Below, in pieces: positions 16,542 through 47,115 of a stretch of DNA of 64,000 nucleotides (position 1 is its first letter; the number at the start of each line of letters is the position of its first letter). This DNA is from Firmicutes bacterium M10-2. Its GTDB lineage: Bacteria; Bacillota_I; Bacilli_A; Erysipelotrichales; Erysipelotrichaceae. The stretch spans positions 105,476 to 169,475 of the forward strand of contig KE159697.1 of NCBI GenBank assembly GCA_000403415.2, in the 5' to 3' direction. The translations under genes were made by a program, and so were the position numbers. The notes under the pieces were generated by a model that was not told where the DNA came from, ran no database searches, and worked only from the letters and a program-made list of their open reading frames with translations.

Positions 16542-16562
16542 AAGGGATCCAAACGATCCCTG
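16542..16562. repeat. Target-site duplication (left) made of a terminator hairpin
   Basis: This 21-bp direct repeat contains AGGGATC and GATCCCT arms. On the minus strand it is followed by a seven-base T-tract, so it is the distal, functional-looking copy of the amtB terminator. Its twin is at 16754-16774. Confidence 0.8.
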
Positions 16563-16753
16563 CAGGCTGTTGACAAAGTCGATTTTTCAAATCGGCTTTG
16601 TCACAGCTTTTTATTTTTCTCCCACAAATGAATAAAAAAAGAGCAATTTGAGGTATTTAAGTACCTAATATTACTCTTTTTTTAGACCTTTTTACCCACT
16701 TTTATTTTATTGAAATTTAATTTTTTCAAAATAGGTAGTTTGTCAACACTCTG
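16563..16753. mobile_element. 191-bp MITE-like element, copy 1, inserted in the amtB terminator
   Basis: The ends are CAGGCTGTTGACAAA and, on the other strand, CAGAGTGTTGACAAA: 15-bp inverted repeats with two mismatches. A 21-bp direct repeat of the host terminator hairpin flanks the element. By eye the copy is identical to the one at 46905-47095. Inside are a hairpin with GACAAAG/CTTTGTC arms and a second long hairpin bounded by A- and T-tracts (about 16634-16684) that could terminate transcription both ways. There is no significant reading frame, so it needs a transposase in trans. Long palindromic target duplications are known for some IS30- and IS1182-family elements; the link to either family is inference. 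Confidence 0.85.
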
Positions 16754-16774
16754 AAGGGATCCAAACGATCCCTG
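16754..16774 (-). terminator. Proximal copy of the amtB terminator hairpin (target-site duplication)
   Basis: Identical to 16542-16562. It lies four bases after the amtB stop codon but is followed by the element end and not by a T-tract, so by itself it should terminate poorly. Confidence 0.75.
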
Positions 16775-16778
16775 TTTT

Positions 16779-18476
16779 CTATTCTTTTCCGTATTGAAGG
16801 GCTGCTTTTCCCGTTTCTCCCGAAGAGATGCGAATAACATTTTCCACATCGTATACGAAGATTTTTCCATCGCCGATCGATCCTGTATAAAGTGCTTTTC
16901 TTGCTGCATCTACAACTTTTTGCACAGGAACTTCCGAAACAACGATTTCCACTTTCATCTTCGGAAGTAGCTTGGAATCGACTTCGGCTCCGCGATAATA
17001 AGTTGTTTGTCCTTTTTGAACGCCCATACCCATAACGTTTGTTACAGTCATTCCGCCAATATTAAGAGTATCCAATTCATTCTTTAAAGCTTCAAAACGA
17101 TCCGGTCTTGTGATAATGGTGACTTGGGATACACGACCGTATCCATCTCTCATATGCACAGGAACTGCATCTTCGACATCAACCACAATTTCTTTGGATT
17201 TCGGAACTTCGACTTGAATCGGGGCATAAGGACTTGTTTCTGTTTCCATCGCAAATCCGGCATATACTGTTTCCAAACCATGTTCTTCTTTATCCAGACC
17301 GGAAATTTCTTCATGGGCAGTTACACGAAGTCCGATTGTCTTTTTGATCACGAAGAAAGTAATAAAGATCGTTACGGCTGTCCATATTCCAATGCAAAGC
17401 AAGCCAAGCAATTGGATCAAAAGCTGATCAAAACCGCCACCATAGAATAAACCGGCCGGAACCGGCATCGTTTCAGTTCCGCAAGCAAACAATCCAACGG
17501 CGATCGTTCCCCACAATCCGTTGGCAAAGTGGACCGCAACCGCCCCAACAGGATCATCGACATGAAGCTTATAATCAAGAAGCCAGACCATAAAGCAGCA
17601 AATCAGACCGGCAACGATTCCGATCACGCATGCACCGAATACATTGACTGCATCACATCCTGCTGTCACAGCAACCAAACCTGCCAATGCCCCGTTCAAT
17701 GTCATCGAAACATCGGGTTTTCCGTAACGAAGCCAAGTAAAGATCATGACTGCACAAGCAGCAAGAGCGGGAGCCACTGTTGTTGTGGCGAAGATCGTTG
17801 CAAGCTGAACCGCACTTTTCGCGGCCGCTCCGTTAAATCCATACCAGCCAAACCAGAGAATAAACACGCCTAATGCGCCAAGCACAATATTATGTCCCGG
17901 AATCCCGTGGGGTTTTCCATCTTGATCGAATTTTCCCAAACGTGCGCCAAGCATTGCAGCACCGATAAATGCACAAATGCCGCCGGCAAAGTGAATGACT
18001 GCCGATCCTGCAAAATCATGAAATCCCATAGCGGTAAGAAATCCGTCCGATCCCCACACCCAATGCGCTTCGATCGGATAGATCAGCAAGCTGATCACAA
18101 ACGAATATATACAATACGAAATGAATTTTGTTCTTTCTGCCATGGCTCCGGAAACGATTGTCGCCGCCGTAGCACAGAAAACAAGATTGAATGTAAAAGT
18201 GGACCAATCCGTATTCACAAAATCTGTCAACGGATGTGCGCCCCAACCGATCAATCCGTTTCCTTGTGTTCCGCATAGCAAGCTGAAACCTAAAACGAGA
18301 AATGCGATCGTTCCCAAACAGAAATCCATCGTATTTTTCATGATGATGTTTCCGGCATTTTTTGCTCGGGTAAACCCTGCTTCGACCATTGCGAATCCAG
18401 CTTGCATAAAAAATACAAGTGCTGCACCAATCAGGAACCAAATGCCAAAAACCTGGCTCAATACTTCTTCAATCAT
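16779..18476 (-). CDS. amtB-glnB: Ammonium transporter fused to a PII signalling domain
   Basis: Residues 1 to about 405 form an Amt channel with eleven helices: FWLIGAALVFFMQAGFAMVE-like start, GSDGFLTAMGFHDFAGS, and the pore His region VAVHFANGLWG. After a linker, residues 455-565 are a PII domain: VTIITRPDRFEALKNEL, the T-loop GQTTYYRGAEVDSK with the Tyr normally uridylylated, and VRISSGETGKAAL at the end. PII proteins plug Amt channels according to 2-oxoglutarate and ATP/ADP. A covalent fusion makes this regulation intramolecular and removes the need for a separate GlnK. AAAGGAG precedes the start, and an attenuator-like hairpin lies 30 bases upstream. The terminator has been split by a 191-bp element. 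Confidence 0.95.
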   Translation of the reverse strand: MIEEVLSQVFGIWFLIGAALVFFMQAGFAMVEAGFTRAKNAGNIIMKNTMDFCLGTIAFLVLGFSLLCGTQGNGLIGWGAHPLTDFVNTDWSTFTFNLVFCATAATIVSGAMAERTKFISYCIYSFVISLLIYPIEAHWVWGSDGFLTAMGFHDFAGSAVIHFAGGICAFIGAAMLGARLGKFDQDGKPHGIPGHNIVLGALGVFILWFGWYGFNGAAAKSAVQLATIFATTTVAPALAACAVMIFTWLRYGKPDVSMTLNGALAGLVAVTAGCDAVNVFGACVIGIVAGLICCFMVWLLDYKLHVDDPVGAVAVHFANGLWGTIAVGLFACGTETMPVPAGLFYGGGFDQLLIQLLGLLCIGIWTAVTIFITFFVIKKTIGLRVTAHEEISGLDKEEHGLETVYAGFAMETETSPYAPIQVEVPKSKEIVVDVEDAVPVHMRDGYGRVSQVTIITRPDRFEALKNELDTLNIGGMTVTNVMGMGVQKGQTTYYRGAEVDSKLLPKMKVEIVVSEVPVQKVVDAARKALYTGSIGDGKIFVYDVENVIRISSGETGKAALQYGKE

Positions 18477-18506
18477 ATCTACTCTCTCCTTTGCGATTGA
18501 TCCAAA

Positions 18507-45244: not shown

Positions 45245-45350
45245 GATGATCCATCTTCTTTCTATAAATTTATTATAAACACATTTACCAAAGCGTGACA
45301 ATTATTTGACTCATTTCACACCATACGTCCTACTTTGGGATAGCGGCGCT

Positions 45351-46811
45351 TCATTCCTGCTCATGCAAACTTTTTCCATTGCTTTTGATTACGTCCCGAT
45401 ACCAGTAAAACGAGTCTTTTTTTAACCGTTTCAACGTTCCGTTTCCTTCGTCATCCTGATCTACATAAATGAATCCGTAACGTTTGCTCATTTGATTGGT
45501 CGAAGCGCTAATTAAATCAATCGGGGCCCAAGACGTATATCCAAGAATTTCAACACCCATGTCGATTGCTTTTTCCATTTCCAAAAAATGTTCCTTAAAA
45601 TAATCAATACGGTACCGATCGTTTATGTGTCCATTTTCTTCCACGACATCTTTTGCTCCCATTCCGTTTTCGACGACCATTAAAGGCAAGTGATAGCGAT
45701 CATACAACTCGATCAGAGAAATGCGCAAGCCGACCGGATCAATTTGCCAACCCCACGCGCTACTTTCCAAATACGGATTTTTTACCCCGACAATCGTATT
45801 TCCCGGTACTCGTTCCATTTTCGGATCTACCGATTCGGTTCGTGACATATAATAGCTGAACGATACAAAATCCACTGTCCCGTCTTTTAAGATTTCCGCG
45901 TCCTGCTCGCACATCTTGATCTCAATACCTTCATTCTTCAATCGTTGTAGCATCAGTTTCGGATATTCTCCAAATACCATCACATCGCTGTAAAATAAGT
46001 TTTCCAAATTCATTTGCTGAGTTGCTGCCACATCTTCCGGCGCACACGTGCGTGGATAGGTCGTCAGCTTTGTGAGCATACATCCCATCTTTGCGTCCGG
46101 AAACAGTTTTTCCATGAGCATCTTGGCGTAAGCGCTCGCCAGAAACTGATGATGGGCTGCTTGATAGGCACATTGGCGCACATTCCCGTTTTCGCAAAGT
46201 TCCGGAATGATTCCTCCGCTCGTAAAAGGATGTCGAATAATCGAATCGATCTCATTAAAATTGAGCCAGTATTTGACATATTCTCCGAAGTTTGAAAAAC
46301 AAGAAAATACAAAATTCAAAAAATAATCAATCATTTTTCGACTTGTCCATCCATTGTATTTCAAAGCAAGATCAAGAGGCATTTCATAATGAGAAAGAGT
46401 CACAATCGGCTCGATTCCGTACTTTTTCAATTCTTCAAATACCGAAAGATAATACTTAACACCTTCTTGACAAGGAAGTTCCTCTTCCCCACGAGGAAAA
46501 AGTCGCGACCAAGCGATCGAAATACGCAAAGCCTTGAATCCCATTTCGGCAAACAACGCAATATCCTCCTTATAATGATGATAAAAATCGATTCCTCTTC
46601 GCTTCGGATACCATTCATCTTCTCCGTGAATCGCTTCTTCGATTTGCTCCAGAGAGATTGCGTTATGCGCCCGGTAATCTTTTACATCCACTAAAGGCTT
46701 GTATTTGGCAACATCCGCTACCGACAGTCCTTTTCCTCCTTCGTGCAGTCCTCCTTCGACTTGATTCGCCGCAATCGCGCCGCCCCATAAAAATCCATTC
46801 TGAAATGCCAT
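45351..46811 (-). CDS. GH1 6-phospho-beta-glucosidase
   Basis: The 486-aa enzyme starts [20 protein letters not shown], has acid/base Glu in NFNEIDSII (Asp in place of the usual Asn after the Ile) and nucleophile Glu in [27 protein letters not shown] provides the phosphate-binding Ser-Lys-Tyr. It is cytosolic and close in sequence to the GH1 proteins at 25141 and 47121, which suggests family expansion by duplication. GAGAGGAA precedes the ATG. A 191-bp element and its terminator duplication separate it from the upstream GH1 gene. Confidence 0.92.
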
Positions 46812-46884
46812 ATTGAATTCCTCTCTTTTTGAATTTATTTTATCATGATTTTTATAATTTGCTTACGTCTTTTTTCATTCAAAA

Positions 46885-46904
46885 AAAGAAGCTTTCGCTT
46901 CTTC
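46885..46904 (-). terminator. Distal copy of the GH1 terminator hairpin (target-site duplication)
   Basis: This 20-bp direct repeat with arms GAAGC and GCTTC is followed on the minus strand by a seven-base T-tract. It is identical to 47096-47115. Confidence 0.8.
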
Positions 46905-47095
46905 CAGGCTGTTGACAAAGTCGATTTTTCAAATCGGCTTTGTCACAGCTTTTTATTTTTCTCCCACAAATGAATAAAAAAAGAGCAATTTGAGGTATTT
47001 AAGTACCTAATATTACTCTTTTTTTAGACCTTTTTACCCACTTTTATTTTATTGAAATTTAATTTTTTCAAAATAGGTAGTTTGTCAACACTCTG
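46905..47095. mobile_element. 191-bp MITE-like element, copy 2, inserted in a GH1 terminator
   Basis: It has the same length, orientation and, by eye, same sequence as copy 1 at 16563-16753, including the CAGGCTGTTGACAAA end and the internal hairpins. It is flanked by a 20-bp duplication of the terminator hairpin of the GH1 gene at 47121. The target sequence differs completely from that of copy 1 except for being a hairpin at a transcription terminator. Identity over 30 kb distance indicates recent movement or gene conversion. Confidence 0.85.
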
Positions 47096-47115
47096 AAAGA
47101 AGCTTTCGCTTCTTC
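47096..47115 (-). terminator. Proximal copy of the GH1 terminator hairpin, without T-tract
   Basis: Identical to 46885-46904. It lies five bases after the GH1 stop codon and runs directly into the element end on the minus strand, so the T-tract is missing. Confidence 0.75.

Follow-up and report, generated by a model that had tools for sequence, protein, structure and literature searches.

A 191-bp repeat occurs twice in a window of 64,000 nt (the whole stretch analysed, positions 105,476 to 169,475 of contig KE159697.1) in the genome of Firmicutes bacterium M10-2, whose assembly comprises 2.41 Mb in 22 contigs. The repeat is a real and well-defined element, a miniature inverted-repeat transposable element (MITE) that has spread in a burst and belongs to a branch of the IS1182 family of insertion sequences (IS) whose target is a DNA shape. 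The MITE is probably (at roughly 80%) mobilised by an IS1182-family transposase that picks its targets by shape, duplicating the hairpin present at the target symmetrically. With the usual transposases the stagger of the target cut is fixed. In M10-2 it ranges from 18 to 32 bp, changing with the hairpin, and has the hairpin's dyad at its centre; choice of a target by its DNA shape is thus clear here and open to test.

Hairpin duplication at the two copies of the window

All 191 bases of the two window copies agree in a pairwise comparison, and the identity stops at the edges of the element, with no further base on the left and two on the right (Table 1). The initial annotation of this DNA had taken the copies for identical and had assigned them 15-bp inverted ends; the ends, CAGGCTGTTGACAAA and CAGAGTGTTGACAAA, agree at 13 of 15 positions. 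It had also read the direct repeats of 20 and 21 bp around them as the terminator hairpins of the upstream genes, and each repeat is in fact a complete stem-loop adjoining the 3' end of a minus-strand gene. When the DNA is read as transcribed, the gene-proximal hairpin passes directly into CAGAGTG at both copies and has lost its T-run, whereas the distal hairpin keeps it (A-runs at 16537-16543 and 46881-46887 on the plus strand), again as had been described.

Copies in the genome and symmetry of the duplication

The left end of the MITE is found at 59 places in the genome. There are 58 ungapped MITEs (56 identical 191-mers and two variants of 189 bp) and one further copy broken by an assembly gap, and the 40 copies that were scored are 100% identical throughout. 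The end pattern has 142 matches in the genome, versus none when it is read backwards. The number of places, the identity of the copies and this asymmetry exclude a chance origin.

At 52 of the 58 ungapped MITEs a direct repeat, 18-32 bp long, flanks the element; it folds into a single complete hairpin, the sequence of which is specific to the site. Four larger kin, namely three IS and one 557-bp deletion form of the IS, carry hairpin repeats in the same range of lengths. Together they make up the set of 56 sites on which the counts below are based, and the hairpin differs at each of them, in agreement with the earlier remark that the targets have no sequence in common. The left and right boundaries of the repeat are equidistant from the stem base in 49 sites, and in 54 their offsets differ by no more than one base, counts that are biased somewhat upward because the hairpin finder required a stem near the repeat. 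When the right offsets were shuffled, the number of sites with equal offsets averaged 10.9 and never exceeded 24.

Terminators as the main harbour

A search for other copies in the genome had been suggested at the outset, and they were indeed found in hairpins, nearly all of them terminator-like. With a criterion of at least six T in the 9 nt beside the stem, 52 of the 56 sites are terminator-like, compared with 23 of the 52 hairpins of the window that have a stem of at least 7 bp (P = 2e-8). Two of the insertions lie inside coding open reading frames (ORFs), at palindromes (L008 and L022), whereas 33 of the 52 window hairpins are coding (P = 8e-12). As coding palindromes have been hit as well, it is the hairpin that is targeted and not the terminator function, terminators being by far the main harbour. 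The initial description of a terminator parasite is thus upheld for the surroundings of the sites and has to be amended for the target itself, which is a hairpin, absent moreover from one site. The orientation of the element relative to the T-tract is balanced (23:22). Positions +1 to +3 of the repeat are biased towards purines, which was considered as a cut-site motif and rejected; unoccupied terminator-like hairpins show this bias too, with purine frequencies of 0.85, 0.89 and 0.81 at these positions, and no motif is therefore claimed.

The scarcity of coding insertions would also be expected if insertion were near-random in A/T-rich intergenic DNA and hairpins remained since selection removes the other insertions. 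Such a process leaves unexplained, however, why the repeats span exactly one hairpin symmetrically, why a hairpin edge is found at 119 of 127 element edges versus 4.6% of random positions, and why both coding insertions are at palindromes as well; it is hardly credible as the origin of the pattern. As to the excess of terminators among the hairpins used, insertion preference and later selection are inseparable from sequence alone.

The partner insertion sequence

The initial annotation had envisaged a transposase with the same ends, of IS30 or IS1182 type, and an IS of the second type was found. It is 1646 bp long and is bounded by ends very similar to those of the MITE (CAGACTGTTGACAAA), of the same 15-bp type. 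There are five complete copies with at least 99.9% identity, each with a single ORF of 475 aa between terminal inverted repeats, and where both flanks are readable the IS sits in hairpins with repeats of 20-25 bp (L032, L034, L072 and L033). The protein scores 400 bits against the model NF033551 (cut-off 270) and exceeds the Pfam cut-offs of DDE_Tnp_1_6, DDE_Tnp_1 and DUF772; by these profile matches it is classed as an IS1182-family DDE enzyme. Its nearest named relatives are from Erysipelotrichaceae, which for a mobile gene says little about taxonomy. Since no IS30 model is among its family matches, membership of the IS30 family, to which IS1630 belongs, was rejected. The IS was assigned to IS1182 by its transposase family, the ORF between inverted repeats, the multiple copies and the palindromic targets, and the 191-bp element to the MITEs by its length, its non-coding nature, its 59 places and the CAGnnTGTTGACAAA ends that it has in common with an autonomous IS.

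The MITE had been proposed to be a non-coding derivative of an IS. This holds for its ends, which are those of the IS1182-type IS of the genome. Origin from this IS by internal deletion was rejected, given that the interiors are unrelated and only about 15 terminal bp are common to both; the 557-bp form (L039), in contrast, is a true deletion derivative of the partner IS. From these terminal bases, and because the MITE's ends accompany no further transposase of the assembly, we infer that the 1646-bp IS is the likely mobiliser of the MITE in trans.

The IS and its 557-bp form choose their sites like the MITE, so target choice belongs to the transposase. This bears on the notion that selection maintains the MITE as a regulatory or terminator cassette of the host, with mobility as an incidental property. 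Its terminator-like hairpins on both strands and the identity of all copies would suit such a cassette, but this identity also fits a recent burst, no Rfam family matches the MITE, two copies lie in coding ORFs, and the element is absent from two other genomes of the genus. A host cassette is accordingly very improbable. The MITE was also not found in the viral contig and phage collections searched.

Several arrangements of these elements were noted besides. The window begins with the end of a partner-IS copy and a 25-bp hairpin duplication (1-114), a third example inside the window. At locus L073 (1700-3950) two MITEs, one of them broken by a gap, have a joint outer hairpin repeat of 32 bp. 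Between them lie about 1.8 kb, including a short ORF and a fragment resembling the C-terminus of an IS605-type TnpB; the pair is possibly a composite unit or a rearrangement. The flank AGTGAACTAAATATAGTTCATT... is found beside IS copies in two contigs (L031 and L033), adjoining runs of N, and would be a repeat or a scaffolding error. Same-ended elements of 2.1-2.8 kb, 822 bp and 350 bp (L033, L035-L038, L040 and L073) were considered as cargo transposons and rejected: all hold runs of N, and as these are scaffold gaps the lengths are meaningless.

Terminator-like hairpins at the element ends

An inward hairpin followed by T is present at 27 of 30 ends of complete elements versus 8 of 104 internal segments (P = 5e-18). 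In many left ends the inverted repeat is itself one arm of the hairpin (agactgttgac...gtcaacagtct TTTTT). The MITE has a terminator-like hairpin at its left end and a central A7...T7 hairpin usable on both strands, the predicted fold of which supports the bidirectional terminator-like hairpin proposed initially; its right end has no inward terminator-like hairpin. According to the predicted folds, transcription from the flanking gene would meet a hairpin of the element soon after the orphaned one. Hairpins so near the element ends should halt incoming transcription, which would fit a compensation for the T-tract lost by the gene-proximal hairpin.

The same habit in relatives

The pattern CAGnnTGTTGACAAA is present in 27 of the 60 genomes searched (M10-2 and relatives), and its reversed form gave four matches in total. 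Forty outward flanks were examined in ten further genomes of the order, and 38 of them adjoin a hairpin whose stem has 6 bp or more; the background is 4.6% at random window positions. The same habit was seen in Erysipelotrichaceae and other Bacilli metagenome-assembled genomes (MAGs), in Merdibacter and in a Tenericutes MAG; in more distant relatives with CAGnnTGTAGACAAA ends (L087, L089, L096 and L102); and on plasmids of E. raffinosus, E. faecium, E. faecalis, Cytobacillus, Providencia, Klebsiella, Salinivibrio and Aminobacter, where AGGGCGGCATCTGCCGCCCT is an example of the repeat. IS1182 relatives with CAGnnTGnnGACAAA-type ends duplicate hairpins in other Bacillota and in Proteobacteria.

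In a tree of the transposases, which has long branches, a moderately supported split (86/78) has the hairpin-duplicating elements on one side; IS1272 was not found among the plasmid matches listed and the tree is without it. No hairpin was found at the targets of a second IS1182 group of the M10-2 genome (L157, L158 and L162; ends AGGGGCTGTAACG) nor at those of ISPsp5 and ISCfr1, with few copies in each case. The left end of that second group (L157, L158, L160 and L162) also resembles a terminator hairpin. In some relatives (L171, L181, L182 and L075) the hairpins on the two sides differ, as expected if two copies recombined.

A comparison with empty sites had likewise been suggested. The first target gene has an ortholog in a different genus of the family (L148), at whose 3' end there is one terminator hairpin and no element; two further ortholog 3' ends (L147 and L149) are less clear.

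Proposed mechanism

The MITE would be a non-autonomous element; a DDE transposase of the IS1182 family would move it in trans and select the target by shape. The enzyme would attach the ends of the element to the two strands of the target, with the dyad of the inverted repeat as centre of symmetry and at or near the hairpin base, so that the stagger would equal the whole hairpin; the simplest site of joining would be the junction of an extruded cruciform. Repair would then leave a full hairpin on either side. Intrinsic terminators may be the commonest strong hairpins that tolerate insertion, and for this reason they would collect nearly all copies.

Single strands readily form hairpins, and IS200/IS605-type elements use single strands. 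The transposase might therefore attack hairpins on single-stranded DNA, for instance on the lagging-strand template, instead of a duplex cruciform, and repeat boundaries that track the stem would be obtained in this way too. A replication-linked, strand-specific process is nevertheless expected to bias the orientation of the element relative to the T-tract, which is balanced, and a DDE enzyme of the IS1182 family together with full duplication on both sides fits joining to two strands. Attack on single strands seems unlikely on this evidence, and symmetric joining to duplex DNA is preferred.

Several observations weigh against hairpin choice and duplication by the IS1182-family transposase, or limit it. 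At one MITE (L012) the repeat measures 9 bp and a hairpin is absent. Three others (L015, L047 and L048) have the full hairpin on one side and a single arm of 9, 10 and 15 bp, respectively, on the other. Two lack a repeat at their own edges; of these, L009 is one of the two MITEs with the joint outer repeat and L042 adjoins a second IS1182-type element. The limits of hairpins in A/T-rich stems are partly ambiguous, the interior of the MITE points to no mobiliser and leaves the ends as the link to the IS, the empty site is from another genus and not from the same species, and selection against other sites could give part of the terminator bias.

A wider claim, for which the chances seem even, would be that a branch of IS1182 extending over Bacillota, Mycoplasmatota and Proteobacteria reads hairpin or cruciform geometry and not sequence. 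The stem would set the length of the duplication, and the terminators at the element ends would make host terminators a reusable safe harbour, allowing the recent 59-copy burst of the MITE.

Relation to known systems

Hairpin targeting in the IS1182 family and hairpin duplication in the IS30 family are each already known. According to PMC4923244, TnSha1/IS1272 (IS1182 family, staphylococci) inserts without sequence consensus into hairpins, several of which are terminators confirmed by RNA sequencing, and deletes part or all of the target hairpin with no target duplication; an inverted-repeat-replacing mode is described for IS1272 in PMC5678879. Both cite Siguier et al. 2015 for palindromic targets in some IS1182 members. 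The M10-2 elements resemble IS1272 in transposase family and in their hairpin targets, often terminators, but they duplicate the whole hairpin whereas IS1272 removes it, and the accessible text describes no MITE for IS1272. An inverted-repeat-replacing element of IS1272 type was rejected because 56 sites each hold two full copies of the hairpin.

For IS1630, an IS30-family element of Mycoplasma fermentans, inverted repeats serve as targets and become duplicated (Calcutt et al. 1999, cited in PMC3317919), and in strain M64 four copies have duplicated junctions of 16-26 bp (PMC3317919). The 18-32 bp hairpin repeats of M10-2 are alike in this duplication, a resemblance and not a membership. The transposase of IS1630 is of IS30 type; a link to terminators is not described for IS1630 in the portions available of that source.

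ISEfa7 and other plasmid IS1182-family elements with CAGnnTGTAGACAAA ends are of the same family and end type as the partner IS and show exact whole-hairpin duplications at several copies (L170, L174, L190 and L191). Unlike the MITE they are autonomous, their transposases are 43-46% identical, and some copies (L171, L172) carry another hairpin, or no hairpin, on one flank. The pneumococcal BOX, RUP and SPRITE repeats of Bacillota are mobile, short and non-coding like the MITE, and one of them resembles a terminator, but the available texts of PMC3049150 and PMC10969869 do not describe insertion into terminator hairpins with duplication of these.

The open-access literature that was searched describes neither an IS1182 branch nor a MITE that duplicates the whole hairpin symmetrically; the ISfinder curators may have recorded the long duplications. 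Across the 56 sites and the relatives, what the literature mentions in passing, that some IS1182 members target palindromes, becomes a measured rule. The case also shows how a mobile element can multiply to about 60 copies while doing little damage to the genes of a small genome.

Other features of the window

Table 1. Elements, hairpins and target genes in the window.
Feature	Coordinates	Strand	Basis or remark
191-bp MITE, copy 1	16563..16753	+	Identical to copy 2; one of 59 genome places
21-bp hairpin, distal to gene 16779-18476, T-run kept	16542..16562	-	Sequence and fold
21-bp hairpin, gene-proximal, without T-run	16754..16774	-	Sequence and fold
Left-end hairpin (16566-16607) followed by TTTTTATTTTT, inward, terminator-like	16566..16618	+	-25.7 kcal/mol (predicted)
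Central hairpin with A-run and T-run, terminator-like on both strands	16633..16684	.	-17.3 and -19.5 kcal/mol (predicted)
Ammonium transporter fused to P-II domain; its terminator is the target of copy 1	16779..18476	-	Pfam Ammonium_transp, P-II
191-bp MITE, copy 2, internal hairpins as in copy 1	46905..47095	+	Identical to copy 1
20-bp hairpin, distal, T-run kept	46885..46904	-	Sequence and fold
20-bp hairpin, gene-proximal, without T-run	47096..47115	-	Sequence and fold
Glycosyl hydrolase family 1 gene; its terminator is the target of copy 2	47121..48593	-	Pfam Glyco_hydro_1
End of partner IS1182-family IS copy; remainder left of window, broken by scaffold gap	1..89	.	Matches end of 1646-bp IS
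25-bp hairpin target duplication of the IS at window start (AAAGGATCAACTTCAATGATCCTTT)	90..114	.	Same 25 bp on the element's other side (L035)

The Rfam search of the window returned only a T-box leader, at 23900-24120 on the minus strand (RF00230, 126.9 bits). The first target gene encodes in one ORF an ammonium transporter with a C-terminal P-II regulatory domain, and full-length homologs of this protein are present in three related genomes with 69-74% identity.

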